From IMG/VR virus record IMGVR_UViG_3300027704_000202, positions 1 through 21,060 of that record: a DNA stretch of 21,060 nucleotides. One strand, given 5' to 3'. The translations under genes and the position numbers were made by a program. The notes under the pieces were generated by a model that did not search any database, was not told the origin of the DNA, and saw only the letters and a program-made list of their open reading frames with translations. The DNA comes from a virus. Positions 1-20,909 of this stretch are shown in pieces; position 1 is the stretch's first letter; each line of letters starts with the position of its first letter.

Positions 1-335
1 CACCACAAAACTGGCGTAGTTTTACGCAGGTCAACGTGGACAAAATTATTGGCAATTCCGATGCCGTTGAACCCCATTTTTAGAGCTTCTTGCACGATCC
101 TAAATCGCTCTACTCCACCGCTAACTTTTATGTCGCAGGCAATTCCTTGGGCATGGGTTCCGGGTGTGTTTTTTGCCTTCTCAATACTGTGCTTTCTGGA
201 CCTGTAACCGCTGGTAATGACAAAGCTAAATCCGCACTTTTCGCGCAGATCGTCTAACGCTGACAAAAACTCTTTGCTCATGTCATTTTCGCCGGTCTCT
301 TGGCAGTCAAATTCTGATAGGTCAAAGTATCTCAC
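1..335 (-). CDS. Endolysin, M15-family zinc peptidase (C-terminal end cut by window)
   Basis: The 111 visible residues read FVITSGYRS (residues 38-46), then GTHAQGIACDI (59-69, zinc ligands H61 and D68) and FVHVDLR (99-104, third zinc ligand H100). This H...D...H set with the SGYRS lead is the Peptidase M15 (D,D-carboxypeptidase/endopeptidase) signature, so it should cleave peptide bonds in peptidoglycan. GTG start overlaps the holin stop (GTGA), with AAGGA 9 bases upstream. No signal peptide is seen, so release would depend on the holin. The catalytic core is complete and only a few C-terminal residues are probably missing. Confidence 0.88.
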   Translation of the reverse strand, partial: MRYFDLSEFDCQETGENDMSKEFLSALDDLREKCGFSFVITSGYRSRKHSIEKAKNTPGTHAQGIACDIKVSGGVERFRIVQEALKMGFNGIGIANNFVHVDLRKTTPVLW

Positions 336-3719: not shown

Positions 3720-3952
3720 GGTGCTGTTTTCCTTTTGTCATCGACAAGATCGGCCATTTTTATGGAGTTGATCTTAGTTTCGATTGAGTTAAGCGCGTCA
3801 ATTAAATTGCGCGCCAGGGTGATCGCCTCGTCGTCACGAGACTGTTCCAAAAAGACGCTAACTGCGTCATCTTTGATGTCTTGTAAAAGCTCCTTAAATA
3901 CATCATCGCCTGCTAGGCGCGTGTACCTTTGAGCCTTTTCTTTATTGTTCAA
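3698..3952 (-). CDS. Small helical protein between portal and scaffold (TTG start)
   Basis: The 84-residue protein is predicted to be fully helical and charged (YTRLAGDDVFKELLQDIKDD, EAITLARNLIDALNSIETKI). It starts with TTG overlapping the portal stop (TTGA); no in-frame ATG exists until near the C terminus, which is why I accept the TTG. Small helical proteins at this position occur in podovirus-like genomes, but I cannot name a function. Helping portal or scaffold nucleation is a guess from context. Its stop overlaps in-frame ATG codons of the scaffold gene. Confidence 0.6.
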   Translation of the reverse strand: MNNKEKAQRYTRLAGDDVFKELLQDIKDDAVSVFLEQSRDDEAITLARNLIDALNSIETKINSIKMADLVDDKRKTAPWKRLKQ

Positions 3953-6033
3953 AATCTACCGCCAGTGACTGCTTGCGCTGGGGCATCAGCCGGGTATCGA
4001 GGGACAGCCTGCGCTTGCTTTACGCCCTGCACATCGACCTGAGTCTGGTACTTGCCATAAATCTCAGCAGCCTTTACTAGGAGGTCTTGGTCCATCTGAT
4101 CGCGCTGTCGGTCATCTGTAGCGATGGCCTTTTGTGCGTCTATCTGGATGCGCGCCATATCGGTCTGAGACTTGGCCTGCGCCTTCAATTGTTCTGCCTG
4201 AAGGAACGCTTGTGCCTGGTCCATTGGAGGCTCACCCTGCTGCGCTTGTTGCTGCTGTTGCATCTGCATTTCCTGCTCTGCACTCATAGGCTTAAAGTAT
4301 CTATCAATGTTGCGTAGTCCACCAAGAGCGAGCATGTCAGCAAGCGTATTTCTTATTTCCGTCATCCCAACAAGGCCGTTACCGACACCGTAGTTTTGGA
4401 ATATTTGAACCTGCATATCGAGTGCCTTTTGCAAAGCACCTAGACGCTCACCCTCTCTGCCAGTGCCAAGACCGACATTGACTGTAACGTCCATTTCTTT
4501 GTTCCAAGAGCGAGGGTCAACAGGCATGTAGTCGTTGCCAGCAATTGCCATCATCTCGGCTTTATCACAATTTTCGATTGTTAGTTTTAACATTAGCTTG
4601 AAAAGCTGCGAAACGCCCCCGGCTAAATTTCTAGCCATTGTCTCAATCTGAGAGGCTGCACCTTGGACCGTTGCGTTCACAGCGGTGGCCGTAGTGTTAG
4701 ATAAAGCGTTGGGGTCTAACCCTGACGATGCGGCTGATACGCCTGTTTTCTGGTCAATCTGAGCGTCAAAATATTCGACTGCGGAAAGTGTTTGCCCCGC
4801 AACAAAGGGGACGGTTAGCTGGTTAATTGCACCAGCAGTTTTTGTCCTGACAACGCCACCGATCTCGTTGTTCAAAAAGTCATCAATGTTAACCATACCC
4901 TCGACGATTTCAGTGCGAGGGTTGTTGGTTAGTGCCACGTTATCGAGGACACCTCGGAGCATTGCTGTTGCTGCGTCCTGCTCTGAAAAGAGTATATCTG
5001 CAAGCGAGTTGCCGACCCAAGTATGTGGTTCTGGATCATGCTGAAAGATCGCAAACGGAACGTCACCCCACGGCTCAAAGTCAAGTAGCTCGTCAGAGCC
5101 GCCAGCCAAAAGAATCTTGTGCATGGTCGGTACGCCTGTACCATCAACGTCGATCTTCATGTAAACCTCGGACACAATGACCATTCTCATCGTCGGGTCT
5201 AAAGGCTGCTCGTCACGATCAAAGCTAAAGTTTTGACGCTCAAATCTTTCTTCGTCTGCAAAGTTATCGGTGTCGTGCCCAGTCAGCTCTGACACTTCGT
5301 CAAAATCGTATCCCATCGCTACTAGATCGCCAACACGGACCTCGCGCTTATGAACAACGGCGTAAGCATCTTCTAAAGACGTTGCCTCTGAGCTAATAAA
5401 AAACTCTTCTGGCGGCAGCGCCTCAATGACTAAATCGCCATATTCTTCGGTGACCGAAATCTTGACATTATGGCTAGAGATGGGTACTTCCATACCCATC
5501 TCGTCAATTTCCATTTCGATGTTTTCACTGTGCTCCAAAACCTCAACACGATCATCATTGACGATTAAACTAAATTCCTCATCGGGCAAATCTTGGTGGT
5601 CGTATGTCTCACTTTTCTTTTCGACGTTCCAGTAGCACTTGACCACTCCGGTTTTCTTTAAAAGAGAATCAGCAAAAACATCAGAGAGGATTTTGTAACC
5701 ATTGCAGGTATTAAATTTATAGTTAACGTACTTAGTGGCCTGCTCTGCAAACTGAGCATCTTCTGGCCCCATTGGCGCAAACTCAACGGGCTTGTCGGTG
5801 GATAAAAATACGCGCATCAGGTTAGGTTTTATGGCTCTAATCTTGTCTCGTATTTTTGTAGCAACAACCTTACTCCGTCCGTCCTCCTCGCCAATGTCAA
5901 CTTTGCCATCGTAATAACGCTGGGCCTTTAATCGATCACTAACGATCTCAGAATTTACAAAGTCTTCAGCACTGTCCACCGCGTCCGAGGCAATTGACTT
6001 GATGTCATCTTCGGTAAGTTTCTTCAGTTCCAT
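3949..6033 (-). CDS. Portal protein (P22/SU10-like)
   Basis: The 694-residue protein matches the large podovirus-type portal pattern. It has an N-terminal helical region with RLKAQRYYDGKVD and GRSKVVATKIRDKIRAIKPN, then LMRVFLSTDKPVEFAP (residues 72-87), ADSLLKKTGVVKCYWNVEKK (121-140), PEEFFISSEATSLEDAYAVVH, and the mid-portal segment PHTWVGNSLADILFSEQDAA. The C-terminal part is Gln-rich and helical (MQMQQQQQAQQGEPPMDQAQ), as in portals with a long barrel or crown. Twelve copies would form the DNA channel at one capsid vertex. The start chosen is the ATG with a GTGGA site, not an upstream TTG. The stop overlaps the next gene as TTGA. Confidence 0.88.
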   Translation of the reverse strand: MELKKLTEDDIKSIASDAVDSAEDFVNSEIVSDRLKAQRYYDGKVDIGEEDGRSKVVATKIRDKIRAIKPNLMRVFLSTDKPVEFAPMGPEDAQFAEQATKYVNYKFNTCNGYKILSDVFADSLLKKTGVVKCYWNVEKKSETYDHQDLPDEEFSLIVNDDRVEVLEHSENIEMEIDEMGMEVPISSHNVKISVTEEYGDLVIEALPPEEFFISSEATSLEDAYAVVHKREVRVGDLVAMGYDFDEVSELTGHDTDNFADEERFERQNFSFDRDEQPLDPTMRMVIVSEVYMKIDVDGTGVPTMHKILLAGGSDELLDFEPWGDVPFAIFQHDPEPHTWVGNSLADILFSEQDAATAMLRGVLDNVALTNNPRTEIVEGMVNIDDFLNNEIGGVVRTKTAGAINQLTVPFVAGQTLSAVEYFDAQIDQKTGVSAASSGLDPNALSNTTATAVNATVQGAASQIETMARNLAGGVSQLFKLMLKLTIENCDKAEMMAIAGNDYMPVDPRSWNKEMDVTVNVGLGTGREGERLGALQKALDMQVQIFQNYGVGNGLVGMTEIRNTLADMLALGGLRNIDRYFKPMSAEQEMQMQQQQQAQQGEPPMDQAQAFLQAEQLKAQAKSQTDMARIQIDAQKAIATDDRQRDQMDQDLLVKAAEIYGKYQTQVDVQGVKQAQAVPRYPADAPAQAVTGGRF

Positions 6034-6090: not shown

Positions 6091-8052
6091 TTAGAGGTTT
6101 TCGACTAGGCCAGCAGGTACTTGTCGTTTGACAATATTGTCAGCGCCCTGCACTAATGAGTTTGCGATGGCAACGACCTTTTGATTTAAAACACCAAAAG
6201 CTGTTTCGTCAGTTAGTGCGCGCCGAACTAGATCAGGGTCTTCTGAGAATAGTATCTCAACGACCTTACGTTTTTGCTGATCATTTAACCCTAAGCCTTC
6301 GGGGATTATGGCTGCGGCTGCGCGGCTAACATTACCGGGGGTTGGCATACTCACCGCCTCACTAACAGCCGCGACCTTACCAACCGTACCCATCTCATTA
6401 GTAGCCTCCTCAACAAACTGCGTCATCGAATTACCAGCAGGCTTAATTGCGACATTGTTCTGCTGCGCTCTACCCGCACGACCTAATGAAGCAATCACGC
6501 TATCGGCAGTCTCTTCAGGCAAGATTGTTTGCATTATTTCATTCGGGCCTGATTTAGACCGATCAAGTCCTCCAGCTTGTGCCGGAAACGAGCCTTTATT
6601 GTCAGTTAGCTTTCTTCTAATTGTTTGGTAATAGCCAGCCCTAAACGCAACTATCTCGTCAGGAGTAAGGTCGTCTAATATGTTTGCAAGATCGTCGGCG
6701 CTTTTGCCTTGCGATGACTTGCCTAACTGAAACGCTTTGTTAAAGGCTTCACGCGCAGAATAGTTGTCCCGGTTAATAGCCAGCCTGGGGCTTGCCTTAT
6801 CAATTGCTTCTTTTAAAACTTTCTCAGCATCGCCAAGTTCAACAGCAATGGCTGGGCTAGGACTAGAGCCTGCATATTTGTTAGCTTCCATTTCCTTTAA
6901 AACTCGCCTAACTTGCTCTGCGTCTTTTAAAGTTGGCTCCCGCATGAAAGAAAAGTATTGCTCCCCAGTATCTGGATCGACCTTATTGCCAAATAAAGGC
7001 TTTGCAGCAGGGTTATTAGTTTTCTCGGCCTCAAATAGCTCTTCCATAGACCGTCGCAGCCTTGCGTTAACGGCAAGCTGCCCAAACATTTTTTGCTTAA
7101 CGGGTTCTGCTAATTTCCCAGCTTCGCCATAAATTGCACCGTACTCGCTGCCTTGGTAGTCTTTTAATTCTTGATTTGCACGTTTTTGTGCAACGGCAAC
7201 ATTTGTACCTGTCACACCTGGGGCAAGCGCGCCTCTTACTTCTTCGTTTGCTTGCGCCATAGTTTTATCAACACGCGCTTTGGCAGCCAATTTTAGGTCT
7301 CCAGCGGCCTCACCACCTTGTGAAGCAATGCCTCGCAAACTTGCAGGAAGCGCGTCATCTTCAGCCATCACGCCGCCATTGCGGACATCGTCCACCGTCT
7401 CATCAATGGTCTTACCTGTGCGCTCTCGTAGACGATTTAGGTACTCTGTAACCTTCCCGGCGTAATCATTGCCGAACTTGTTTCTTAAGGCCGTTTGAAC
7501 TGCTTGATAACCAGCCCCTACGCCAAGAGCGACTGCTCTAAGCGCCTCTGATGCAGCAACGGCTGTGATTGCACCTGTTGCAGCATCTATGCCCTGACCG
7601 CCTAAAGACTCGCTTTCCGAGTAACCATACCCTGCTGTTGCGCCAACCGGGGCGGCTCGCATTGTTCGGCTTACTAGTCCGGCAAGCCTTGTTGCATTAG
7701 CTGCTCCTGCTGGTGCGCCAATGCCTGTCACCATAGCAGCGACTGTAGGCACTAACCCGCCAACAATCTCTGAGGTAATCGCAACCTTGGGGTTTTCTGC
7801 CTGAAATCGTTTAATCTCTTTTCGGACCTCATCACGAATCGTTTTATAGTCGAGTGGGTCATCAGTGAACTGTGACGCTGCGGTCCTAAAGCTGGCCTCT
7901 AGCTCATCGCCAAGGCCAAGCAAGAACCCCTGCCCACCAGCGGTCCTTAACAGGTTACCAGCGTAATTGCCTTGCGGCTCTTGGGCTGGGCTTGCTAAAT
8001 CATCGCCTAGACCTAAATCGACTGAAGCTAATATTTCATCTTGTCTGCTCAT
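6091..8052 (-). CDS. Large internal virion / DNA ejection-type protein (653 aa)
   Basis: The N-terminal region carries GGQGFLLGLGDELEASFRTA, then YKTIRDEVRKEIKRFQAENP and a Gly/Ala-rich hydrophobic stretch (about 93-205, for example TSEIVGGLVPTVAAMVTGIG). This GFG.GDE.EA...R.E...F...NP.....SE..GG..PT arrangement recurs in phage and prophage internal proteins of this size. The remaining sequence is charged and helical, with no catalytic motif that I can identify. Amphipathic Ala/Gly-rich segments would suit a protein that crosses or enters the host envelope during DNA delivery. It is the last gene before a small hairpin and the portal gene. Confidence 0.65.
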   Translation of the reverse strand: MSRQDEILASVDLGLGDDLASPAQEPQGNYAGNLLRTAGGQGFLLGLGDELEASFRTAASQFTDDPLDYKTIRDEVRKEIKRFQAENPKVAITSEIVGGLVPTVAAMVTGIGAPAGAANATRLAGLVSRTMRAAPVGATAGYGYSESESLGGQGIDAATGAITAVAASEALRAVALGVGAGYQAVQTALRNKFGNDYAGKVTEYLNRLRERTGKTIDETVDDVRNGGVMAEDDALPASLRGIASQGGEAAGDLKLAAKARVDKTMAQANEEVRGALAPGVTGTNVAVAQKRANQELKDYQGSEYGAIYGEAGKLAEPVKQKMFGQLAVNARLRRSMEELFEAEKTNNPAAKPLFGNKVDPDTGEQYFSFMREPTLKDAEQVRRVLKEMEANKYAGSSPSPAIAVELGDAEKVLKEAIDKASPRLAINRDNYSAREAFNKAFQLGKSSQGKSADDLANILDDLTPDEIVAFRAGYYQTIRRKLTDNKGSFPAQAGGLDRSKSGPNEIMQTILPEETADSVIASLGRAGRAQQNNVAIKPAGNSMTQFVEEATNEMGTVGKVAAVSEAVSMPTPGNVSRAAAAIIPEGLGLNDQQKRKVVEILFSEDPDLVRRALTDETAFGVLNQKVVAIANSLVQGADNIVKRQVPAGLVENL

Positions 8053-9320
8053 TTTTGCTCCTCATCCATAAACGCTTTGCGCTGTGCAAAGTTCATGCGA
8101 TCCCATATATATTGGGGTGAAATAGGCTTTGTCGCAGTGCTTGCTTGTGTGGCTCTATTAATCAACTTTTCGTTGTTTGCTGGCATGACCGAGATGGCGT
8201 ATTCAGCCTCCTCCTGCTCCATAATTTCACTAGTCCACTGCGTGAAGCCAATGCCAGAATTCAGTCTGTTTGTTTTCTTGAGAAGCTCGCGCCTAAACTT
8301 ATCCTGCGCTTTTATTTTGTCGTCAATGTATTTAATTGTTTCGGCGCTGTTCATGCCTTGCGGAAAGCCAGTGGCCAACGCTAGTTTTAGCTCCGTAGCA
8401 CTTAGCGCGCCAAACGTAGCAGAGTTTATGATATCGATACCCATCTCATTAGCCACATTGCGGAGTAACTGCGTGTTTGCATTAAAAGTAGGCAGATGTT
8501 GCTTTATCCAGCCAGTTTCCGCGCCGTCCTGAATCAGCTTTTTTGCTTGTCGCAACGATGAGATTTGATTGTTAAGAGCATCGTATCTCTGAAAGTAGTC
8601 TTTCGCCTGGGAGCGCGCCTGCTGAATATCTGACTCTCGCAGTGTAGCGTCTTGCTCCATCTGCGCCTGCGCTATATCAGTTGTGCCTGTACCGCCTAAC
8701 TTAATAAGGCTGTACCCGCCTTGAGCGTTAGGGTCTAGGTGATAGGTAAATTGATCGCCAGCCTTCATACCGTGCTTTGGCATATCTTCTTGTGCCGTCT
8801 GGATAGAGCCAATATTTTTGCTCATATGCGGCGACTTAAACTGCCCGGACAAATATGCGCCCATGATGTCCTTGACCATACTAGGATTTGCCTTAATAGC
8901 GTCAAGAGCTTGAGCAGCCATCGGATCGCTTGCTGACCTGCCTTGTAAAAACTTAATTGTGCCAGCAGCGTCTAGCGAAGTTTGTTTGCGCGCTTGCGCC
9001 TGCTCAATAGTATTAGCAGCAGATGCCGCTATGCCCTGATCAGGGTTTAAGCGCATCGAGTTCAGGCCCATCGTCAATCGAGCCATCTTCTCGTCATCTT
9101 TCCGAAAATTATTAATGCCTGTACCCATCCGAGATAGTAGGCCAGGAGGCGGCTTTGCTGGCGGTGGTAGCGCACCCCTGAAGGCTCCGCTGCTTTGTAA
9201 GCCCTGCATTTGCGCGTTCATGTTGTTGACCGATGCCTGAGCTTGGCTTGCTTGTGTACCCGCAAAAACGCCACTGGCCTTGAGTCTTTCCATCTCTGCT
9301 TGCATCTCTTCTGGTGTCAT
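8049..9320 (-). CDS. Internal virion / DNA ejection-type protein (423 aa)
   Basis: The protein is mostly helical with an Ala/Gln-rich N-terminal region (ASQAQASVNNMNAQMQGLQS), a Pro-rich linker (LPPPAKPPPGLLSRMG) and, from about residue 235, a long helical domain with ISSLRQAKKLIQDGAETGWI, HLPTFNANTQLLRNVANEMG, INSATFGALSATELKLALAT and a closing IKAQDKFRRELLKKTNRLNS. The LPTFN...TFGALS..ELKLAL series is a pattern I know from phage and prophage virion proteins thought to be injected with DNA. It lies between other internal-type genes and overlaps both neighbours by 4 bases (ATGA). The ejection role is inferred. Confidence 0.65.
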   Translation of the reverse strand: MTPEEMQAEMERLKASGVFAGTQASQAQASVNNMNAQMQGLQSSGAFRGALPPPAKPPPGLLSRMGTGINNFRKDDEKMARLTMGLNSMRLNPDQGIAASAANTIEQAQARKQTSLDAAGTIKFLQGRSASDPMAAQALDAIKANPSMVKDIMGAYLSGQFKSPHMSKNIGSIQTAQEDMPKHGMKAGDQFTYHLDPNAQGGYSLIKLGGTGTTDIAQAQMEQDATLRESDIQQARSQAKDYFQRYDALNNQISSLRQAKKLIQDGAETGWIKQHLPTFNANTQLLRNVANEMGIDIINSATFGALSATELKLALATGFPQGMNSAETIKYIDDKIKAQDKFRRELLKKTNRLNSGIGFTQWTSEIMEQEEAEYAISVMPANNEKLINRATQASTATKPISPQYIWDRMNFAQRKAFMDEEQK

Positions 9321-9715
9321 TGCCCGCCTCCCATCATCTTCATTATCATTTCGGCCATTTTGGCCTTTTTGTCATCGTCTTTATCATTACCAATGTCGGC
9401 CAACAGACCACCAGTGTTAAGACCAGTGCCGTAGGGAGCCATTTGGTGCTGAATGGCCTGTATTTGCTGACCGCCGCGAGTAACATCGCCGACAATTGGA
9501 TTGATCGGTGCCATGCCCTGATAGTTAGCAAGTGCTGCCTGCATCTGGTCCATCATGCTGGTGTCTGGCATCTCTGGCGGCGCAACGGCAACCTCTGTCT
9601 GTGGAATCGTCGGGGTCATGTCCATACCGGCCATCATGTCCTTGTTGTTCATCAATATCCGTTCCACCGCCACCTTTCGCAAACGCTCTTCAGCGTCCTG
9701 ATTTGGATCGTACAT
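9317..9715 (-). CDS. Met-rich small phage protein (hypothetical)
   Basis: I do not recognise this 132-residue protein. It has a short charged helical start (DPNQDAEERLRKVAVERILM), a Pro/Met-rich middle (MTPTIPQTEVAVAPPEMPD), and an acidic-basic C terminus (NDKDDDKKAKMAEMIMKMMG). I count 17 Met in 132 residues, which is unusually many. It starts directly after the stop of the 757-residue gene and overlaps the next gene by 4 bases (ATGA), so it is translated with the internal-protein block. No membrane segment or enzyme motif is visible. It may be a minor virion protein or an assembly helper. Confidence 0.6.
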   Translation of the reverse strand: MYDPNQDAEERLRKVAVERILMNNKDMMAGMDMTPTIPQTEVAVAPPEMPDTSMMDQMQAALANYQGMAPINPIVGDVTRGGQQIQAIQHQMAPYGTGLNTGGLLADIGNDKDDDKKAKMAEMIMKMMGGGQ

Positions 9716-11989
9716 TTACATCATCCCCGCGCCGAGAGTTAGATAATCAAACAGACCAGGGTTCTTGCTGGTCGTTGTGGTCTGAGGAACTGGTGCCTGA
9801 CCCAATGCCGCAGAAATCAAGCCAGTGTCCTTGTAAGGCTGATTTGTGTATTGATTAAACTGGTTTCGCGCCGCATCAATTAATAGCTGGTTAAGTCCCT
9901 GCTTCATTGCGCCATCTTGTGCCATATTGCGATTGACTGTCTGGCCCATGCCAAAGCCTAAGTTACTCAAGTTACCTAGCTGGTTGCCTGCATTTAGGCG
10001 CTGCTGTGACCCGGCTAAACCTGCATTCTGGTTAGCCATTTGAGCCGCCATACGCTGCTGTGCGTTGAACTGACCCATGTTGTTGCGAGCCTGGGCGTTA
10101 GCAAGGCTGGAGGCGTTACGGGCCTGCGATCCAAACTGACGAGCTTGATTTAAAGATGACTGATTGGCGAGGTTAGCTGTGTTACCCGCTTGTGCACCAA
10201 ACTGCTGCGCTTGATTAATCGAGGCCTGATTAGCAAGTCCAGAGGTGTTTAAAGCCTGCGATCCAAACTGTCGAGCTTGATTTAAAGATGACTGATTGGC
10301 GAGGTTAGCTGTGTTGCCTGCCTGAGCACCAAACTGCTGCGCTTGATTAATCGAGGCCTGATTAGCAAGGCCAGAGGTGTTTAAAGCCTGTGCTCCAAAC
10401 TGACCTGCTTGATTCAATGCCCGTTGGTTAGCAAGGTCTGCGGTGTTACCCGCTTGTGCACCAAACTGACGAGCCTGATTGAGCGAGGCCTGATTAGCAA
10501 GGCCAGAGGTGTTTAGAGCCTGTGCTCCAAACTGACCTGCTTGATTAACTGCCCGTTGGTTAGCAAGGTCTGCCGTGTTAGAGGCTTGAGCACCAAACTG
10601 ACGAGCCTGATTGAGCGCCTGCTGATTGGCAGAGCTTGCCGCGTTAGAGGCTTGAGCGCCAAACATAGCCGCCTGCTGCTGCTGCTGCGAGGCCTGCCCT
10701 GCCGCCTGATTAGCCGCTGCTGCTCCGAACTGCGAGGCCTGATTAGCCGCTGCTGCATTAGTCAATGCCGCAGTGTTAGCCGCTGACGACCCAAACTCAG
10801 ACGCTCTGTTCTGCGCCGCTTGATTGGCAAGGTTTGCTTGGTTCTGAGACTGCGCCCCAAACTGCGATGCCTGATTTGCAGCAGATTGATTTGCCATGTT
10901 CCCTTGCTGCGACAAGTTAGCTGTAAGGCTATTTGCCTGTAGGTTAGCCCCTTGGTTGGCAAGATTAGCCTGCATGGTGTTGCCGATGTCGGTAAGGCCC
11001 ATTTGTTGAGCATTGTTAAACCCAGACTGACGAAGTTGCGCTGATGTATCAGCCGCCTGCTCATAAAAGTTGCGGTTATTTTCGGCTTCCCTTAATGCGT
11101 GACGAGAGCCGCCAAATGCTCCTGCGGCTGTTGCGTTAGCACCAATAGTCTGGCCTTGTATTTGCCGAGCACGGTCCAGGTCGGACAACGTGTTATCGAC
11201 AACCGCGTTATCGTACTGATTCATGTAACTACTAAGGTCTTGGTTTGCGAGAAGCCCCGACTGCACGTTATTTACGCCGACTGTTGGGGTTGAGCCTAAA
11301 CGCTCTGCACCATAACCAGTGGCAGTGGTATCTTTCGCGCCGTAACCTTGAGAGCCTGCATTAGTTGCATTGTAACCTTGCGAATCTACCCCTGATGCGT
11401 CGAAGCCCTGCGCTGTCTGTCCAGCGGCTTGGTAGCCTTGACCGTTAGCTCCGGCTGCGGTGTAACCTTGGCCCGTATTCGTATTAGCCTGGTAGCCTTG
11501 ACCGTTAGCTCCGGCTGCTTGGTAGCCTTGACCCATATTTGTATTTGCTTGGTAGCCTTGACCGTTAGCTCCGGCGGCTTGGTAGCCTTGACCCGTATTC
11601 GTATTAGCCTGGTAACCTTGACCGTTTGCGCCAGCGGCTTGATAACCCTGACCATAACTTGTCGATGTCCGAGACTGCTGTGGCGAAATATAGCCAGGCT
11701 GGTAGTTCATCTCGCGGCGAGCGCCAGCAATCGAGTCGTTAATACCTGTTGCCGCTGTCTGGTTAATATTTGGTGCGCGAGCGCCCGGTTGCGCTGGAGG
11801 GGTGCCGCCTGTCATTGGGGGAAACCCAGGGGTCGATGGGCCGCCGCGAGGTGGAAAGCCTTGATGTGTAGTTTGGCCGTTGGGATTTGGCATTAATGGG
11901 GGAAAAGATGTTTGTGCCTGTATTCCTGGGCCGCGTGTCATCATAGGGTTCTGGGTCTTCATTACGCCTTGAGCGCCGCCATTAGACAT
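9716..11989 (-). CDS. 757-aa repeat-rich virion (internal/ejection) protein
   Basis: Domains in order: a Pro/Gly-rich leader with repeated FPP motifs (about 30-70); twelve 10-residue units of GQGYQA type (113-232); a helical region (about 248-330) with YMNQYDNAVVDNTLSDLDRA and AGAFGGSRHALREAENNR, a motif pair I recall from many phage internal proteins; fifteen 22-residue units of LANQxxxNQAxQFGAQAxNTA type (343-672); and a short C-terminal tail ending in FDYLTLGAGMM. The Ala/Gln/Asn helical repeats, absence of enzyme motifs and placement before other large Ala-rich proteins suggest an elongated virion protein, perhaps ejected with DNA or forming an internal rod. No homology search was possible. 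Confidence 0.7.
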   Translation of the reverse strand: MSNGGAQGVMKTQNPMMTRGPGIQAQTSFPPLMPNPNGQTTHQGFPPRGGPSTPGFPPMTGGTPPAQPGARAPNINQTAATGINDSIAGARREMNYQPGYISPQQSRTSTSYGQGYQAAGANGQGYQANTNTGQGYQAAGANGQGYQANTNMGQGYQAAGANGQGYQANTNTGQGYTAAGANGQGYQAAGQTAQGFDASGVDSQGYNATNAGSQGYGAKDTTATGYGAERLGSTPTVGVNNVQSGLLANQDLSSYMNQYDNAVVDNTLSDLDRARQIQGQTIGANATAAGAFGGSRHALREAENNRNFYEQAADTSAQLRQSGFNNAQQMGLTDIGNTMQANLANQGANLQANSLTANLSQQGNMANQSAANQASQFGAQSQNQANLANQAAQNRASEFGSSAANTAALTNAAAANQASQFGAAAANQAAGQASQQQQQAAMFGAQASNAASSANQQALNQARQFGAQASNTADLANQRAVNQAGQFGAQALNTSGLANQASLNQARQFGAQAGNTADLANQRALNQAGQFGAQALNTSGLANQASINQAQQFGAQAGNTANLANQSSLNQARQFGSQALNTSGLANQASINQAQQFGAQAGNTANLANQSSLNQARQFGSQARNASSLANAQARNNMGQFNAQQRMAAQMANQNAGLAGSQQRLNAGNQLGNLSNLGFGMGQTVNRNMAQDGAMKQGLNQLLIDAARNQFNQYTNQPYKDTGLISAALGQAPVPQTTTTSKNPGLFDYLTLGAGMM
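9974..10963 (-). repeat. 66-base (22-residue) helical coding repeat array with 132-base higher-order copies
   Basis: Fifteen units of exactly 22 residues start at residues 343, 365, 387 and so on to 651 of the 757-residue protein, with no insertion or deletion. Each holds LANQ or a close variant at the start and, in most units, Phe at the thirteenth position. Each unit splits into two 11-residue halves, compatible with a hendecad alpha-helical coiled coil. Within the array, DNA copies recur with a 132-base period at 10141, 10273, 10405 and 10537; the first two copies differ at about 8 positions by eye. Confidence 0.85.
11294..11653 (-). repeat. 30-base (10-residue) GQGYQA coding repeat array
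   Basis: Twelve in-frame 10-residue units run from residue 113 to 232 of the 757-residue protein. The first eight are nearly identical and alternate between GQGYQAAGAN and GQGYQANTNT, giving a 60-base higher-order period; the last four (AQGFDASGVD, SQGYNATNAG, SQGYGAKDTT, ATGYGAERLG) have drifted. The aromatic residue at position 4 is Tyr or Phe in every unit. The near-identity at DNA level points to recent expansion. Confidence 0.85.
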
Positions 11990-12725
11990 CGAATTTTCTC
12001 CCTAAAAGCTGTGCGCTAGTCATATCAAGGCCTTGGTTAAAGTTGCCTTGATTAAACCCGTTGCCTGCTAACTGCTGATTGTTAAGTTGGTCACGCACGA
12101 TCATGTCGTCAGGAAACATTTGGTCATATGAGCCATAGTCATACGGATTAATATCGTTCGGATTGCTCTGTCCAGCGCGAGTGCTAAAGTTAACGCCAGT
12201 CTGGGGAATGTCGCCAAACGGATCATTCTGCGCAAGGTACGAGCCAATATCGGAACTGTGGCCCTGAACGTAGGGGCTGGTAGGACCGCCGGGCATCAAG
12301 CCGCCTGGGAACTGTGGATTTTGAGGCGCACTGTTATGCCCACCCTCGCCTGTCACTGGGTCAACATACATTTTGTCGTAAGCTGCAACCTGACCGGGGC
12401 GTGATGCTTTTAGGTCATCAACCGCCATTTGATACATCGGGAAAGACGAGTGCCCTTGAACGCCACCAAAGTCTTGCGCTTGTGGCATACCGTCCATTGC
12501 TGACATACCTGGGTCAACTAAACCAAAGGCCGCGCCTGCATCAAGATTAGCTTGCATGGCCTGCTGCTGTGGCTGCGTAAACGCCGCAACGTCTGGCCCC
12601 ATATACGGCATATAGCCAATATCTTGGACCTGCTCCGCTCGGTTCAGACTCTTTTTAGATGCGTTCTCCAGATAAGCTGGAATCTCAACTTGTGATGATT
12701 GGCTTCCGCCTTTTCCACCTGCCAT
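11982..12725 (-). CDS. Gly/Gln/Asn-rich internal virion protein (hypothetical)
   Basis: The 247-residue protein has an N-terminal segment (VEIPAYLENASKKSLNRAEQ, YMPYMGPDVAAFT, QPQQQAMQANLDAGAAFG) that I recognise from large phage internal or tail-tip proteins, where a Y.PY.GP.VA.FT...Q.AM pattern is frequent. The rest is low in predicted structure, rich in Gly, Pro, Asn, Asp and Gln, and carries the hexamer VQGHSS twice (near residues 89 and 153). Ribosome site AAGGTAATTTAAT precedes the ATG. It overlaps the 757-residue repeat gene by 8 bases in a different frame. In related phages these N-terminal motifs and those in the next gene can lie in one polypeptide (see findings). Confidence 0.65.
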   Translation of the reverse strand: MAGGKGGSQSSQVEIPAYLENASKKSLNRAEQVQDIGYMPYMGPDVAAFTQPQQQAMQANLDAGAAFGLVDPGMSAMDGMPQAQDFGGVQGHSSFPMYQMAVDDLKASRPGQVAAYDKMYVDPVTGEGGHNSAPQNPQFPGGLMPGGPTSPYVQGHSSDIGSYLAQNDPFGDIPQTGVNFSTRAGQSNPNDINPYDYGSYDQMFPDDMIVRDQLNNQQLAGNGFNQGNFNQGLDMTSAQLLGRKFDV

Positions 12726-12726
12726 A

Positions 12727-13092
12727 TTAAATTACCTTCGTAAGTGTGGTGAACGCTTCTGTCCACTGTTTAGCTTTTAAAACTTTAGCCCAACCTCTTC
12801 GCCCGGCTATCGTCATGCTTGTGCAGCCCTGTGCTTTAGCAAACTGCACCGCTGACTCATCCATATCGACTATCTGATTCTTCTCGCCACCCGCCAAAAA
12901 GATGTGAAACACCTTTTTTCTTGGAAAGACAATAATTTCTGTTACCGCGCACCCTTTAACCGCAGGCCAAAACTGCATCTTGCCGGACACAATCCCTTCA
13001 ACAATGTCCTCAAAATAGTGCGTACCACCGGAATATTCCAAGGCAGCCTCTATCCACGGTCTACACCGATTTAGCTCCGAATTAAGGTCCAT
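12727..13092 (-). CDS. Conserved 121-aa phage protein, possible GNAT-like fold
   Basis: The compact protein reads CRPWIEAALEYSGGTHYFED near the start (residues 10-29), then QFWPAVKGCAVTEIIVFPRK, FHIFLAGG, and AGRRGWAKVLKAKQW near the end. The order of strands and the AGRRGW segment followed by a helix recall acetyltransferase (GNAT) folds, and I recall this protein type in several podovirus-like genomes between tail and internal protein genes. No complete acetyl-CoA loop can be claimed. It abuts both neighbours. The function is unknown; a virion-assembly role or protein modification are both open. Confidence 0.65.
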   Translation of the reverse strand: MDLNSELNRCRPWIEAALEYSGGTHYFEDIVEGIVSGKMQFWPAVKGCAVTEIIVFPRKKVFHIFLAGGEKNQIVDMDESAVQFAKAQGCTSMTIAGRRGWAKVLKAKQWTEAFTTLTKVI

Positions 13093-13728
13093 TTATTGCT
13101 TGATTCTGCTAATTGAAACCTGCACCGCAGGGATTGCCGGGATGGGTGATGATGCCGCCGTGTTAGGCAGCGTTAAGCCCGTGTTTGAGGCCGCATAGAA
13201 CACTTTTAGATACTGACTAGCGCCTACCGCTACAAGGGCTGTAAGGGTGATTGTGTCGTCACCATTAACGGCCTTTTTTACAGCGTAACCGTCGGTTCCG
13301 TTGACGTTAATCCACAGGTATCCGGTGTAGCTGCTAGAGGCGGTTGCTTGGGCTGTAATACTGACTTCGAGCAGCCCTGCATCGGTGACATCAATCTTGG
13401 TTGCGTCCGAGCCATTGATCGCCAAACCGTCAGTCGCTGCCGCAGTGTTAAATGAGATCGCATAACCTGTATTCGCCTGGCTTGGAGTCTGCGTTGCTGT
13501 TGCATAAAACTGGCCGCAGCCACCTCCCACTAGAATTTGCTTAAATGCGCTTGATTGAGAAACAACCGGGTAACCAGCCGCGTCATACAGCAATATACCG
13601 TCATTGGCTGCCGAGTCTCCGGTGACAAAATACGATAACTGGGATCGAGTCGCCGACAATATATCGACCAGGCGCTTTGCCCACATATTCCAATGTGGAC
13701 CAATGGGCTGGGGTAGCTGAAAACTCAA
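13093..13728 (-). CDS. Jelly-roll-like virion protein (TTG start)
   Basis: The 211-residue product has an N-terminal helix (GPHWNMWAKRLVDILSATRS) followed by a beta-rich domain from about residue 66. The domain contains FYATATQTPSQANTGYAISF, a KIDVTDAGLLEVSI strand pair, GYLWINVNG and a closing AIPAVQVSISRI. This resembles TNF/C1q-like jelly-roll domains common in phage fibres and decoration proteins. The start is TTG overlapping the nozzle gene stop as TTGA, with a GAGG element about 10 bases upstream; the next in-frame ATG (residue 15) would cut into the N-terminal helix. It is likely a tail or capsid-surface structural protein; receptor binding is possible but not shown. Confidence 0.65.
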   Translation of the reverse strand: MSFQLPQPIGPHWNMWAKRLVDILSATRSQLSYFVTGDSAANDGILLYDAAGYPVVSQSSAFKQILVGGGCGQFYATATQTPSQANTGYAISFNTAAATDGLAINGSDATKIDVTDAGLLEVSITAQATASSSYTGYLWINVNGTDGYAVKKAVNGDDTITLTALVAVGASQYLKVFYAASNTGLTLPNTAASSPIPAIPAVQVSISRIKQ

Positions 13729-15200
13729 CGTCTGCCACCCTCAACAACATTTAGTCGCATCTTGCCTGCTCGCCAGTTATTCACCTCAGAGCCATTAATG
13801 AGCATTCTGACCTGACGACCTTGGAACCTTGCGCCCGTAGGATTTGCTAACGTAAAGGGTCCGTGACTTGTCTCCGTGCCATTCGGGTAGAAGCGCGTTT
13901 TAAAGGTAAGCGACACCTGACCCTGTGTACCTTCATCGGGAATAATCTCATTGACCCGGACGATGTTCTGGCCTGACCCTAGTGTGATTGGGCCAGACTC
14001 AAGGTAAGGCGCTGACGAGTGGTTGTAGCCAAACTCATGGTTATAAAGGTTGCCGCTGGCATCAAACCATAGCGGTGATCTAAACGAGCCAGAGTCAACG
14101 CCCGTGGTCCTCGATAGCTCACCGATATTCCAATGGCCTTCTTTATAGTCATAGACTACATAGCGATCATTTTCATTGCTCGATGCGGACGGATAAAACC
14201 ACCAGACCTCGCCAAATTGCGAATTATGGATCGCGCAGGCTTTAGATCGCTGCGACTCGTTGATGTCGGTAAAAACATGGTCGAGAACATCGCAGCTCAT
14301 CTCTTGCACACTTGCGCCGTTGTACTGAAAGAATCCAGCCGTACCCATCCAGAACGCGCCGTCATCAACTGCAATGGCAGATTGGCGTGAAATGATGCCG
14401 CAGGCAGTACCCACCCGGTTAAACGAGTAGACAAAGGGAGGGCCAGCGTAAGTTGCAGAGTGTGCATCAAGTGTAGTCAGTATTAACGCCGACCCCTTCA
14501 CCCGCACACCGCACATGATCTCGCCAGTGGTCTGTAGCTCAATGTCACCTGCCTGATTGGTCGTGGCCGGTGCCCATGTAGTGTTGTTCTCTCTGTCGCA
14601 CCAGGCAATCTTCTGCGGGTTACCCGCTGTCGCCAGTGCAAAGATAAATCGTTCATCGGTGACCATCATGGCCTTGTTGTTTACAGGCGCATTGGTCAGC
14701 GCCGCCGCCTTGACTGAGGCATTTAGCTGCCACTGGTAAATCTTGCCATCGCTAGAAGAGCAGGCTATTAAATACTGACCAAAGTTATCAAGCGACCAAG
14801 TAGTAACGTGCTCTGGTACGCCCGTGCTGGGTCTCTGTGTACCCCAGGTGGTAAGGCCAAACGTGCCACCGCCATAACCAATATTCACGGCGGCGTTAAC
14901 TGTGCCTGAAGTAAGACCAGCAGGCGTTATGTCAGCCACTACAGAGCCTTGGTTAATGCCGTATAGCTTGTTGTAAGTGCCAGCCGCTAGTCGTGCGTCA
15001 TCGCTGTGGTCAATCCACGCGACAGAGCCTCTAGGGACTGATGCTGTGGCAGATGCCTTGCGGGTCGTCCAGCCGCCAATAGGGCGCACTGAGCCGTTTT
15101 GCCAACGAATAAAATTTCCATCAATCCATCGGCCAGCCGAGTCTAATTCTGTACCGTGGTTATAAATACCAGCGGGAACATCAAGGGCAACGAGAGCCAT
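13725..15200 (-). CDS. Tail nozzle / DNA-stabilisation-like structural protein
   Basis: The 491-residue protein is almost entirely beta-rich, with a repeated pattern of Trp- and Gly-containing blades (GRWIDGNFIRWQNGSVRPIG, SVAWIDHSDD, IAWCDRENNTTW, GAFWMGTAGFFQYNG, GEVWWFYPS). The opening VPAGIYNHGTELDSAGRW is typical of phage proteins that plug or extend the tail tube below the adaptor (nozzle, or P22 gp10-like stabilisation proteins with beta-propeller folds). A strong ribosome site (AAAGGAAAAAAAT) precedes its ATG. The stop overlaps the next start as TTGA. Specific equivalence to SU10 nozzle is inferred from composition, length and context. Confidence 0.65.
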   Translation of the reverse strand: MALVALDVPAGIYNHGTELDSAGRWIDGNFIRWQNGSVRPIGGWTTRKASATASVPRGSVAWIDHSDDARLAAGTYNKLYGINQGSVVADITPAGLTSGTVNAAVNIGYGGGTFGLTTWGTQRPSTGVPEHVTTWSLDNFGQYLIACSSSDGKIYQWQLNASVKAAALTNAPVNNKAMMVTDERFIFALATAGNPQKIAWCDRENNTTWAPATTNQAGDIELQTTGEIMCGVRVKGSALILTTLDAHSATYAGPPFVYSFNRVGTACGIISRQSAIAVDDGAFWMGTAGFFQYNGASVQEMSCDVLDHVFTDINESQRSKACAIHNSQFGEVWWFYPSASSNENDRYVVYDYKEGHWNIGELSRTTGVDSGSFRSPLWFDASGNLYNHEFGYNHSSAPYLESGPITLGSGQNIVRVNEIIPDEGTQGQVSLTFKTRFYPNGTETSHGPFTLANPTGARFQGRQVRMLINGSEVNNWRAGKMRLNVVEGGRR

Positions 15201-15778: not shown

Positions 15779-16099
15779 TTAGCTACCCAAAGTAGGCCGA
15801 GTTGCGGGAAAGTCTCCAGTGGACGGCCAGTCACGCAAGGCAGTCCTATAATTCAGGATATTGTCACGATTAGGCCAGTCTGGGGTTTGTGATGCTGTGT
15901 CTGAAGATGACAGTTCTGCGTCACGCCAATCTCTTGCTGACATTTCTGCAATTTCTAAATCAGTAAACGTAGGCGCTGGATTATAACCGCAAAACCATAT
16001 TGAATTACCGTCTTCAAACTTAGCGTATTCGCCTATTTCTGGCAATCTTTCTGGCGTTACTGCTACGTCTGTTTCTGGATTCCACGCAATTATATTCAT
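15779..16099 (-). CDS. Phage tail (fibre) assembly chaperone
   Basis: The 106-residue protein has a mixed N-terminal part (YAKFEDGNSIWFCGYNPAP) and a C-terminal segment with the family pattern of phage tail assembly chaperones: WRDAELSSSD, a spacer, then NYRTALRDWPSTGDFPATRP. In known phages such proteins assist folding or trimerisation of the adjacent fibre and are usually not in the mature virion. It overlaps the preceding probable fibre-tip gene by 4 bases (ATGA), which supports co-transfer of fibre tip and chaperone. Confidence 0.8.
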   Translation of the reverse strand: MNIIAWNPETDVAVTPERLPEIGEYAKFEDGNSIWFCGYNPAPTFTDLEIAEMSARDWRDAELSSSDTASQTPDWPNRDNILNYRTALRDWPSTGDFPATRPTLGS

Positions 16100-16725
16100 C
16101 GGTTTATTCCTTTCATAGTTGTTCTTATTATGCCGCCTCTAGGTGAAAAACTAGTGGTAACCCAGCTACCTGCTGTTGCTGAAGGCTTTAAAACCTCTAA
16201 CTTAAATGAAGATTCAAAAGGCAAATAAATTTTTCTTTGCAATGCTTCAGCAGGAGATATAATACCTAGTACTTGATTAGGGTATCCACGCAATTGATAC
16301 CATGCACTACTGTAGTTATTAGTGCTACTTGTTGTTGTAAATCCACCAAAACAGCTTGTGTACAAATTAATTGAATTAGGCGAAAGAGGCGTTGTATAAG
16401 TTGTAGCAGTTCCGTCAACTGTTAGCTTTACTTGTATCCCTCCCCTTGTACTGCCAGGAATAATTATGTGTGTGACAGCACCGCTGCCTGATGTAATGTT
16501 ATTTAACGTAAACCACGTATCTTCGGCAGAGCTAGGTGGAGTAGTGTATTCAAGACTAGACCCAGTATAATTAAGGTTGCCAGCGCGAGTCCAAAAATTA
16601 GCCGAGGTACGTGCAAAATTCTGAGCAGTTGCGTCACCAGCTTCCAAGCTACCTTGAGCAAACGGTAGCCCTAATTCTGCGGTTCCACCGCCACCTGCTG
16701 ATACGATTGAACTTAGTGTAGCCAT
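16096..16725 (-). CDS. Probable distal tail fibre or receptor-binding protein (hypothetical)
   Basis: I do not recognise a family. The 209-residue product starts [14 protein letters not shown], a Gly-rich start common to phage fibre-associated proteins, and is rich in Thr, Ser, Tyr and Trp with alternating beta pattern and no long helix. I chose the ATG at 16725 because it overlaps the previous TAA (TAATG); an in-frame ATG at 16740 would add five residues. Base composition is clearly more AT-rich than its neighbours: two 60-base rows (16201, 16321) are about 30 and 33 percent GC, against 53 percent for row 14461. Position between a fibre gene and a tail assembly chaperone suggests an exchangeable host-recognition tip. 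Confidence 0.6.
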   Translation of the reverse strand: MATLSSIVSAGGGGTAELGLPFAQGSLEAGDATAQNFARTSANFWTRAGNLNYTGSSLEYTTPPSSAEDTWFTLNNITSGSGAVTHIIIPGSTRGGIQVKLTVDGTATTYTTPLSPNSINLYTSCFGGFTTTSSTNNYSSAWYQLRGYPNQVLGIISPAEALQRKIYLPFESSFKLEVLKPSATAGSWVTTSFSPRGGIIRTTMKGINR

Positions 16726-17363
16726 TAGATTAATACCCATGCTGAGGTTGATATACCGACAAATCCAATGGCCATATTGGCCACATCGATAGTCAGATTT
16801 TCTGAAGAGCCTGCAATGGTGCTGCTGTTGCGGCCAATGATTGTGTTGACAAAGTTTCCAACAGTCACATGAATCGTCATGCCGACACTTGGTGTTGGTA
16901 ACGTAAGTGTCACGCCTGCGGTCCCAACATAATGGTGCGTATTTGCTGTGGCACTTGCGTTACTGCCGACAGTAGCCGTAGTCACACCTCCGGCTGTCTT
17001 GCTGTCAACATACGCCTTAATAGACTGCTGCGTTGCCAGCTTGACCGCAGAGTTAGACGACATATTATCTTCGTCTTTGATCCCGGTTACAGTTGCGCCA
17101 TCACCAGCGATATTGATCGAGGTGTTAGCTACAACAACAGTGCCTGTAAAGGCAGCAGCAGTCGCGCCACCGATGACTGCGCCATCAACCGTGCCGCCAT
17201 CAATGTCTGGCGTGTTTAGGTCCATATTTACGACAGCAGTTGTGCCGTCGAGCAAGTTGTCGATGTTGTCTAGGTTAGTGTTGAGCTTGGTTCCCCAGGT
17301 ATCTGCGGATGCCCCGACCTCTGGCTTAACAAGCGAGTATGATGTGGTAGTTGTATCAGCCAT
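16725..17363 (-). CDS. Tail fibre protein
   Basis: The 212-residue protein opens with [20 protein letters not shown] and [14 protein letters not shown], an N-terminal segment seen at the start of many aquatic phage tail-fibre proteins. A middle segment [12 protein letters not shown] resembles fibre collagen-like or beta-helix shaft sequence, followed by the frequent fibre motif [19 protein letters not shown]. The C-terminal part (from about residue 130) is beta-rich ([20 protein letters not shown]) and could be the distal domain. The stop TAA overlaps the likely start of the next gene (TAATG), and the tail chaperone is two genes on, so this belongs to the receptor-recognition module. Confidence 0.8.
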
Positions 17364-19004: not shown

Positions 19005-20909
19005 TTAGATGGGGCTTAGAAATTCACTGCCCTGCCGGACAATTTGACGGAGTAGACCTGGTTCCATGTAGTTGCCTTTCGTACCGCTTTCCACACCGGG
19101 TATATCGTATAAATCAGGGATGCGCTTATCGCTTCCTGATAGGTTTAATATTGCGTTGATTTGATCAGAGGTTAAGAAGTTCACCCCATTAGCCACTGCC
19201 CGGTTAACGCTTGACATGCTTTCTAGTGCTGTATCGCCTATTGAATCAAACAGCCCCTTGGCGGCAGGTGCGGCAACACCCGCTCCACCAGTACCTAATG
19301 CCATTGCGCCCAGTAGTTTAGGATCAGCCTGACCATAGACGCGCTTCAATAGGCCCTCATCAATGACCCCTTGGGATAGTCCGTGGTTCATGCTTAATGC
19401 ACGAATATCTGACATATCATTGGCGAGGACTCGACCGTTATTCTCCATAAGCGGTCTAGCATTAATAGACTCAGCCAGTGTACCGATACCCTCACCAGGA
19501 AGACCACCGCGATAGGTAGGATGCCCTGACTCAGCAATCAATCCAGCGGAACTGTCAATACGGCCTATGTTCTTGAGTGTGCCCTCTGCCTCCATGTACT
19601 GACCGGCATCAGTAGTTGCAGCCCTAGCCTCAGAGATTGATAACCCACCGTTAACGTCACGGTAGCTCTTATCAATAATGTCGGCGATCTTCTTACGCGC
19701 TGGTCCCTTTACCTGACCAAAGATTGCATTGGAGGCCGGGTCACTAATGCCGCCCCATTCAGGGATGACAGCCTTAATCTGACGATCAAGCTTCTTAATA
19801 TTGGTCTTACTCATACCCTGACGGGCATAGTTAATCATTGTATCTAAAGGCATCGTGGAAAAATCAATTCCAGTCGGTGCCATCGTGTAGGGAAGTATCA
19901 AGGGGTCTTGACCAAACTCTTTCTTTAGTTCAGACGCTCGCTTATGCAAGGAGTTAACAACACCTGGGTCTGAGGCCCATACCTGACCCTGAGAGCTTGG
20001 GTCGAACATGAAGTCTCTGCCACCCCGTAAGTCAACCGGGTCAATCGCCTTGCCGTGAATAGAGTCTAATATCCCTCCAGCAGCCGAACGATCAGACTGC
20101 GTTAGAATATAAGGGCTACCCTCAAAGTCGTATAGGTTACGTTGTAAGCCTGTATCCATTAACCTGGGGTCAACACCTGTCTGCATGGTCTCAACCGCTT
20201 CTAGCACGCCCTTACGCTCGTTACCACCACCCACAGCACTAGAGAACCTAGAATCAATAAGCCGTCTAGCGCCTGCGGTTAAGGGTCCAGCTTCAGCATC
20301 CTCTGAGCCCGTTGCACCCAATAGACCAATGCCCGATGCCGAAGCAAGCATATTCCTGCTAGTCTTTTGGTCTGGATCAAACGCTGCGTACAGCGACCTA
20401 ACATTTGAGGGATCAAACGTGTTTGTCTCTATTAACTCATCACCTATGCTGCGCCTTATTCCATCAAATCCGCGATCAACCAATGCCTGCTGTGAGTCTG
20501 GAGATGAATACTGGTTCGGAACGTGCGCTTGGTTTAAGTCTAAGTAATTACCCTCCCTTGTAACCATTGGGATAATGTTTTGCCCGGCGTTTAGGTCTAC
20601 GCCCTTTTTAAACTTTGCCACCATTGATCTAGAGCCGGCATAGTCAGTATCAGGCGTTGTATAGAACCCAGAACCTAAGTTACCCACCGATGACGGTTGA
20701 CTATTAACAAACTCAGACGATGTTCCGTGGAACTGGGGGCTATTAAGGTCGTAACCCTGATCCAAGGCTCTTGATGATCGACTCGCCTGGTCCATTGGGA
20801 GTTCACCTGACGCTATCTTTAGCGCCGTACTCTCTGGTACACCTCTCCTTACTAAATCCCCAGCAATGTCCGACAGACTGTCTAATATTCCTAGTATTCT
20901 GCCACTCAT
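19005..20909 (-). CDS. 634-aa phage protein with an N-terminal ADP-ribosyltransferase-like (ART-PolyVal type) domain
   Basis: Residues about 40-190 match the pattern I know from ADP-ribosyltransferase domains in polyvalent phage proteins: a lead-in RALDQGYDLNSP, then FHGTSSEF (H61 as candidate NAD-binding His), GSGFYTTPD (Y83), RGFDGIRR (146-153) and ETNTFDPSNVRS then AAFDPD (161-180), with E158 or E161 as candidate third catalytic residue. Such enzymes would transfer ADP-ribose from NAD to a host target. Residues 210-480 form a conserved-looking region of unknown fold (RDFMFDP, PEWGGISDP), and 532-553 is an Ala/Gly-rich hydrophobic stretch that could interact with membrane. It starts with ATG overlapping the terminase stop and has an AAAAGG ribosome site. 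Enzyme activity is inferred; a degenerate structural domain is possible. Confidence 0.7.
   Translation of the reverse strand: MSGRILGILDSLSDIAGDLVRRGVPESTALKIASGELPMDQASRSSRALDQGYDLNSPQFHGTSSEFVNSQPSSVGNLGSGFYTTPDTDYAGSRSMVAKFKKGVDLNAGQNIIPMVTREGNYLDLNQAHVPNQYSSPDSQQALVDRGFDGIRRSIGDELIETNTFDPSNVRSLYAAFDPDQKTSRNMLASASGIGLLGATGSEDAEAGPLTAGARRLIDSRFSSAVGGGNERKGVLEAVETMQTGVDPRLMDTGLQRNLYDFEGSPYILTQSDRSAAGGILDSIHGKAIDPVDLRGGRDFMFDPSSQGQVWASDPGVVNSLHKRASELKKEFGQDPLILPYTMAPTGIDFSTMPLDTMINYARQGMSKTNIKKLDRQIKAVIPEWGGISDPASNAIFGQVKGPARKKIADIIDKSYRDVNGGLSISEARAATTDAGQYMEAEGTLKNIGRIDSSAGLIAESGHPTYRGGLPGEGIGTLAESINARPLMENNGRVLANDMSDIRALSMNHGLSQGVIDEGLLKRVYGQADPKLLGAMALGTGGAGVAAPAAKGLFDSIGDTALESMSSVNRAVANGVNFLTSDQINAILNLSGSDKRIPDLYDIPGVESGTKGNYMEPGLLRQIVRQGSEFLSPI

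Follow-up and report, generated by a model that had tools for sequence, protein, structure and literature searches.

Two length-locked repeat arrays point to a strand-helix stalk in a podovirus protein encoded in an ejection-type gene cassette

In the streptococcal antigen I/II proteins SpaP and BspA, helical and extended (PPII) repeats lie on both sides of a central domain and wind around each other to give a stalk more than 50 nm long (PMC7732690). This stalk is stabilised by contacts between the N- and C-terminal ends; BspA has an asparagine seam (PMC7732690). In the phages P22 and T7, the gp14/gp13 gene precedes those for gp7/gp14, gp20/gp15 and gp16, in that order (PMC8954989; PMC10386132). 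After ejection, T7 gp14 consists of two antiparallel helices, and six copies of it make up a channel in the outer membrane (PMC11784390); gp14-like proteins are 181-240 aa long, with a size variation below 30% (PMC8954989). In phage SU10, gp20-24 are present in virions and absent from the genome-release intermediate (PMC9509320).

The window analysed here, a whole stretch of 21,060 bases, is a fragment of a marine podovirus with SU10-type portal and capsid proteins (Pfam). One of its genes encodes a protein with two tandem repeat arrays (Table 1). The gene order is tubeB/nozzle-like protein, 211-aa protein, 121-aa GNAT-like protein, 247-aa protein, repeat protein, 132-aa protein, 423-aa protein, 653-aa protein and portal. 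This order is kept in related contigs: the tubeB gene is syntenic in 94 of 106 loci, the GNAT gene in 94 of 106 and the 247-aa part in 74 of 106. The repeat protein is encoded after a gp13/gp14-like gene and before gp15/gp16-like genes, as are T7 gp14 and P22 gp7. The 423-aa protein has a single weak match, to a PHROG annotated as unknown function (E 0.009), and phiGT1_19, which matches the 653-aa protein, is annotated as an 'internal virion/injection protein'. The profile of the 247-aa ORF matches phiM5_27 (E 2e-13). The overlapping genes at 11982-12725 and 9716-11989 (-) correspond to one fused gene in phiM5_27 and in the relatives L058, L083, L092 and L095. Elsewhere in the window, a 634-aa ORF at 19005-20909 (-) has no PHROG, Pfam or NCBIfam match, and its N-terminal third, judged by eye, resembles an ADP-ribosyltransferase-type fold (FHGTS...GFYTT...). 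At the window end, 3-335 (-) likely encodes an M15-type peptidase endolysin (SGYRS...HAQGIACDI) adjoining small membrane-like proteins, again as judged by eye.

Table 1. Cassette genes of the window and elements of the repeat protein; N' and C' are the two lengths defined in the text.
Feature	Position	Strand	Basis
SU10-type portal protein	3949..6033	(-)	PF23899, E 4e-190
653-aa internal virion protein, gp16 position	6091..8052	(-)	phrog_5880; phiGT1_19, E 4e-18
423-aa downstream cassette protein, gp15/gp20 position	8049..9320	(-)	syntenic in 30 loci
132-aa downstream cassette protein	9317..9715	(-)	syntenic in 22 loci
757-aa repeat protein	9716..11989	(-)	open ORF with ATG start
C-terminal distal cap QQRLNAGNQLGNLSNLGFGMGQ..., residues 662-757	9719..10006	(-)	conserved landmark, E 2e-40
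15 frames of 22 residues (LANQ..LNQA.QFGAQA.NT..), residues 343-672	9974..10963	(-)	repeat analysis; AF2 helix; bulk of C'
Conserved core, residues 248-342: helix, AFGGSR turn, helix; invariant Tyr255	10964..11248	(-)	conservation and AF2
AFGGSRHAL motif, residues 291-299	11093..11119	(-)	near-invariant among relatives
Twelve 10-mers GQGY(Q)A..., residues 113-232	11294..11653	(-)	repeat analysis and length law; part of N'
Distal N-terminal cap helix, residues 73-98 (PNINQTAA...MNYQP); Tyr96 is the N' landmark	11696..11773	(-)	conservation
247-aa partner ORF, N-terminal part fused in other phages	11982..12725	(-)	phrog_4287 N-terminus, E 7.8e-4
121-aa protein, P22 gp14 / T7 gp13 slot (acetyltransferase-like)	12727..13092	(-)	profile against phiM5_26, E 4e-25
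Nozzle / tubeB-like tail protein	13725..15200	(-)	phrog_3287; phiM5_25, E 5e-125; SU10 gp17 nozzle, E 6e-5

Both arrays keep exact register without indels, the 10-mers in 12 of 12 frames and the 22-mers in 15 of 15. Eleven of the 22-residue frames are clear copies, agreeing with the consensus at no fewer than 13 of 22 positions; frames 1, 5, 14 and 15 are degenerate (9-10/22). Lag-22 identity is 0.555, as compared to a shuffle maximum of 0.249 (2,000 composition-preserving shuffles, all lags). In the 10-mer array, autocorrelation gives an identity of 0.53 at lag 10 and 0.69 at lag 20, which indicates a doubled higher-order period, and that of the 22-mer array is also doubled, at lag 44. These frame counts and lag identities confirm, far beyond chance, the 12 x 10 and 15 x 22 registers of the original prediction. 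It had also placed a Tyr in every 10-mer, which holds for position 4 of 11 of the 12 frames, the remaining one having Phe. The proposed division of the 22-mer into 11-residue halves is real but weak, because lag-11 identity barely tops the shuffle maximum (0.248 vs 0.219); in several relatives the 11-residue period dominates. Tandem repeats in the DNA concur, with periods of 30/60 bp and 66/132 bp. Between copies, the 22-mers have a dN/dS of about 0.12 and the 10-mers one of 0.28, dS being close to saturation. The copies differ mainly at silent sites, and both arrays are therefore maintained protein features. Phase separation or Tyr stacking by the 10-mers, as once suggested, found no support.

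AF2 prediction of the single chain gives a near-continuous alpha-helix for the 22-mer region (pLDDT about 75-86 across most of 361-520, lower elsewhere), in agreement with the helical rod that had been proposed. The helical domain seen earlier between the arrays is the conserved core and is predicted as a helix-turn-helix, with helices at 258-289 and 295-348; the same hairpin is predicted in L007, the minimal member of the family. The N-terminal cap helix, a landmark detected at E 7e-16 (HMM), is predicted at 75-93 (pLDDT 65-74). The C-terminal cap precedes an added S74 domain in some relatives. The 10-mers have a pLDDT of about 30. Over the whole 22-mer array the hydrophobic moment has its maximum at 98.5 degrees per residue (3.65 residues per turn), and Asn is phased at 11 residues along the helix in most members tested. 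A classical amphipathic coiled coil was rejected, the hydrophobic moment of the 22-mer consensus lying within that of shuffles (p = 0.08). IcmE/DotG of type IV secretion shares the 10-residue repeat period and gave a profile match to a PDB chain at E 5e-10, which was treated as low-complexity or compositional similarity and not as kinship. The Pfam decapeptide family scored 17.9 bits against one relative (L009), far below the cut-off of 45.

Two lengths were measured between HMM landmarks: N', from the aromatic residue of helix 1 to the core Tyr, and C', from the Arg of AFGGSR to the Leu of QQRL. In the window protein N' is 159 aa (Tyr96 to Tyr255) and C' is 369 aa (Arg296 to Leu665). Among 113 non-identical relatives representing 44 distinct length pairs, N' ranges from 6 to 209 aa and C' from 43 to 479 aa, and all fall on one line with r = 0.9995. 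The slope of C' on N' is 2.163 by OLS and 2.177 by the Theil-Sen method (95% 2.163-2.200). The line C' = 2.2N' + 19.2 places 52% of relatives within 0.5 aa, and the largest deviation is 10.6 aa. Examples of N'/C' are 29/83, 39/105, 59/149, 79/193, 99/237, 109/259, 114/270, 129/303, 159/369 (the window protein), 179/413 and 209/479. Repeat counting likewise shows the number of 10-mers and the length of the helix rising together. Independent contrasts on the core tree, which lessen the effect of shared ancestry on the correlation, gave r = 0.9997 and a slope of 2.18, with the same sign in 65 of 65 contrasts.

Pairs with identical or near-identical cores differ in nearly all cases by multiples of 10:22. 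Exact differences of 10:22, 20:44, 30:66, 40:88 and 50:110 were found among relatives with near-identical cores, the last of these between the window protein and L003. L086 and L093 differ by an 8:18 indel, and the ratio therefore holds outside the repeat unit as well. In L024 (5728-6951), a distant relative, the N-terminal repeats are pentapeptides (..NVAGS..) and the helical repeats have 11 residues, a half-size version of the 10:22 pair. The arrays, first described as unrelated, are so in sequence; in length they are locked at 10:22, and a length-locked pair replaces the earlier view.

The relationship also extends to proteins outside the fit. In L216 and L224, the law placed the anchor on the right aromatic residue or one residue off. 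In loci from bacterial genomes, 6 of 7 with usable landmarks were within 2 aa of the law, some of these landmarks being weak: L268 (59/149), L269 (39/105) and L274 (29/83), the last in a Paracoccus sulfuroxidans genome assembly, were exact, and L271, L273 and L275 were within 2 aa. L272 missed by 15 aa, since its HMM anchor gives an N' of 46 and a predicted C' of 120 and the observed C' is 105; counted by eye from the aromatic residue, N' would be 39 and would fit, but the HMM result remains a miss. L270, L278 and L279 were excluded from this check for unreliable landmarks. In L278, a related protein on a Sphingomonas parva contig, the C-side repeats are of QFNAG type and those on the N side are RTTIDPTREAQA repeats. 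The fused members L058, L083 and L095 fit less exactly, with ratios of 2.05-2.13, in a check that ignores L129, L130 and L151 as false anchors from a looser regex.

The arrays are matched in position as well as in total length. Among the indels of sister pairs, the 23 that could be matched one to one between the arrays are equally far from the core in each of them (r = 0.955). The median misfit is 4.4 aa for an antiparallel model, as compared to 66 aa for a parallel model and 55 aa for random placement (P < 5e-5). Single indel positions are uncertain by about one unit because the repeats resemble each other. One group of close relatives supplies several of the 23; the result is unchanged in a subset of 15. 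In both arrays, the comparison of the window protein with L003 shows the absence of one unit close to the core and of four at a greater distance.

An extended chain rises about 3.3 Å per residue and an alpha-helix 1.5 Å, a ratio of 2.2. The slope equals this ratio, and both arrays therefore span equal axial length. Given the 10:22 lock and the position-matched indels, the N-terminal stretch must run at full extension and stay in register with the helix, against the flexible linker of the original prediction. We hold with high confidence that the protein has a stalk whose extended N-terminal stretch runs antiparallel along the C-terminal helix and is self-matched to it in length. Starting at the distal cap, the chain would pass along the 10-mers in full extension, reach the AFGGSR hairpin core, turn there and return as one long alpha-helix of 22-mers to the same cap. 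Each extended 10-mer (10 x 3.3 = 33 Å) would lie antiparallel along one 22-mer (22 x 1.5 = 33 Å) of the same or of a neighbouring subunit, and the stalk would change length only in paired steps of 10:22, rarely 5:11 or 8:18. The even 10-residue unit keeps the strand faces and 22 residues make six helical turns, which may explain the repeat sizes. These lengths suggest a stalk of about 55 nm in the window protein (369 x 1.5 = 554 Å) and of about 6 to 72 nm in relatives. Direct docking of the strand on the helix and the oligomer state are what we infer; the AF2 single chain supports the core hairpin and the long helix, not strand docking.

By analogy, the closest known principle is that of the streptococcal antigen I/II stalk, without sequence kinship. 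As judged from lengths and register, a helical and an extended array that span the same axial distance would lie on either side of a central domain in this protein as well. Unlike antigen I/II, the extended stretch comes first and the helix second, the ratio is 2.2 and the extended stretch has almost no proline. The window protein has no Pfam match to antigen I/II domains, and its sequence has no LPXTG sortase anchor. The asparagine seam of BspA prompts the thought that the Asn seam on the helix could bind the strand backbone.

The window protein itself has no significant match in Pfam, PHROGs or NCBIfam. A BFVD search matched only unnamed phage proteins at E <= 0.001, and a PDB fold search with the minimal member gave no match at E < 0.001. 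The AFGGSR core occurs in at least 486 IMG/VR viral stretches. Complete relatives are 222-1144 aa long and carry 0 to 17 ten-mers, and the five-fold length variation comes largely from the paired arrays and the N-terminal region. The 'DNA ejection protein' family phrog_4287 matches OANV2 gp18 (7e-20), phiM5_27 (6.5e-91), SU10 gp22 (3.5e-109) and the injection protein of Salmonella phage 7-11. It also matches L003, whose core is 99% identical to that of the window protein, at E 7e-15, a match that includes its S74 end. In the other direction, the core-family profile matches phiM5_27 (7e-51) and SU10 gp22 (4e-6, with high compositional bias) and none of the P22, T7 and phiGT1 control proteins. 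Members of phrog_4287 (SU10 gp22, the 7-11 protein and phiM5_27) share the hairpin core, the N-terminal part, an optional S74 domain and the gene cassette; SU10 gp22 has 322 aa, the 7-11 protein 412 aa and the profile 392 positions. The window protein differs from them in being split over two genes, in lacking S74 (Pfam) and in its long paired arrays. OANV2 gp18, from an Octadecabacter phage, has 301 aa and no repeats. The S74 domain comes and goes among close relatives, being present in L003 and absent from the window protein; C-termini with S74 were noted in L003, L009, L018, L062 and L114.

No sequence match of T7 gp14 or P22 gp7 to the core-family profile was obtained with filters off. T7 gp14 was the top row of a second-look fold comparison (Z 7.5, rmsd 4.6-4.8 Å over 110-115 residues), which is in the chance range for long helices, and the near-constant ~200 aa of gp14-like proteins is unlike the 222-1144 aa of this family. 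From the cassette and the family, transitively through relatives, we infer a role in DNA delivery. The original prediction of a virion protein is supported by the same route, as the fused phiM5_27 was detected in the particle proteome and SU10 gp20-24 are in virions. The repeat protein, in the T7 gp14 / P22 gp7 slot, is probably a virion protein that is ejected. It would be packaged, exit by way of the tail either before the DNA or together with it, and form or extend a delivery conduit. Taking architecture and ejection role jointly, the evidence leans towards an ejection-cassette protein that builds a strand-helix stalk.

The same stalk could instead be the shaft of an external trimeric tail fibre or tailspike, with an S74 chaperone aiding its folding and its length setting reach. 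An S74 domain is usual for trimeric fibres and ends 25% of complete relatives (PF13884 in OANV2 gp18, L003, L009 and L018), and both phiM5_27 and OANV2 gp18 are annotated as tailspike/chaperone. The other 75%, the window protein included, are without it; the gene lies inside the ejection cassette, and tail-fibre-like genes are located elsewhere in the window, at 15779-17363. Stalk length equal to the head would also suit a fibre: the OANV2 podovirus head measures 53 nm (PMC9239159), and a stalk of 55-72 nm, if straight, would match it, so that inside the virion it would need to bend, remain unfolded or sit elsewhere. SU10 gp22, however, belongs to the same PHROG and leaves with the genome, and we regard an external fibre as unlikely.

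A slope near 3.3/1.5 would also result if the arrays did not touch and the N-terminal stretch were a taut tether, just reaching between core and cap as the helix holds them apart under permanent full stretch. Such a tether could carry surplus length, yet none is seen in the fit, where no relative departs from the line by more than the maximum given above. Indels match by position and not merely in sum, and an even 10-residue unit, in which strand faces repeat, is paired with the 22-residue unit. The tether is therefore an improbable account. There is next to no chance that an independent flexible linker and helical rod drifted in size by replication slippage, for which AF2 disorder of the 10-mers and slippage-prone tandem DNA repeats might speak, since the length law, with its correlation and uniformly signed contrasts, refutes it, or that the arrays are assembly or repeat-collapse artefacts of metagenomic contigs with near-identical 132-bp units, since collapse would not preserve 30:66 bp ratios across two separate arrays and the law is also met in bacterial genome assemblies such as that of P. 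sulfuroxidans.

The strand-helix stalk would make a delivery protein its own ruler, with strand and helix of one chain equal over an eleven-fold range of helix length and the reach of tail-extension conduits evolving in 3.3-nm steps, a reading to which we give a slight preference. The lengths of neighbouring genes show no consistent scaling with the repeat protein in a co-variation test, and the ruler therefore appears internal. Literature searches found no description of coupled arrays of this kind in phage proteins. A correlation this tight, with a slope equal to the ratio of two polypeptide geometries, is rare. Comparative sequence alone here indicates the conformation, antiparallel pairing and length of a structure that AF2 leaves unresolved, and the repeat pair lends itself to the design of rods with a chosen length. 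Should the ejection role be right, podoviruses would gain a delivery stalk of evolvable length, and what determines that length, be it surface layers, periplasm or head size, could be tested directly.
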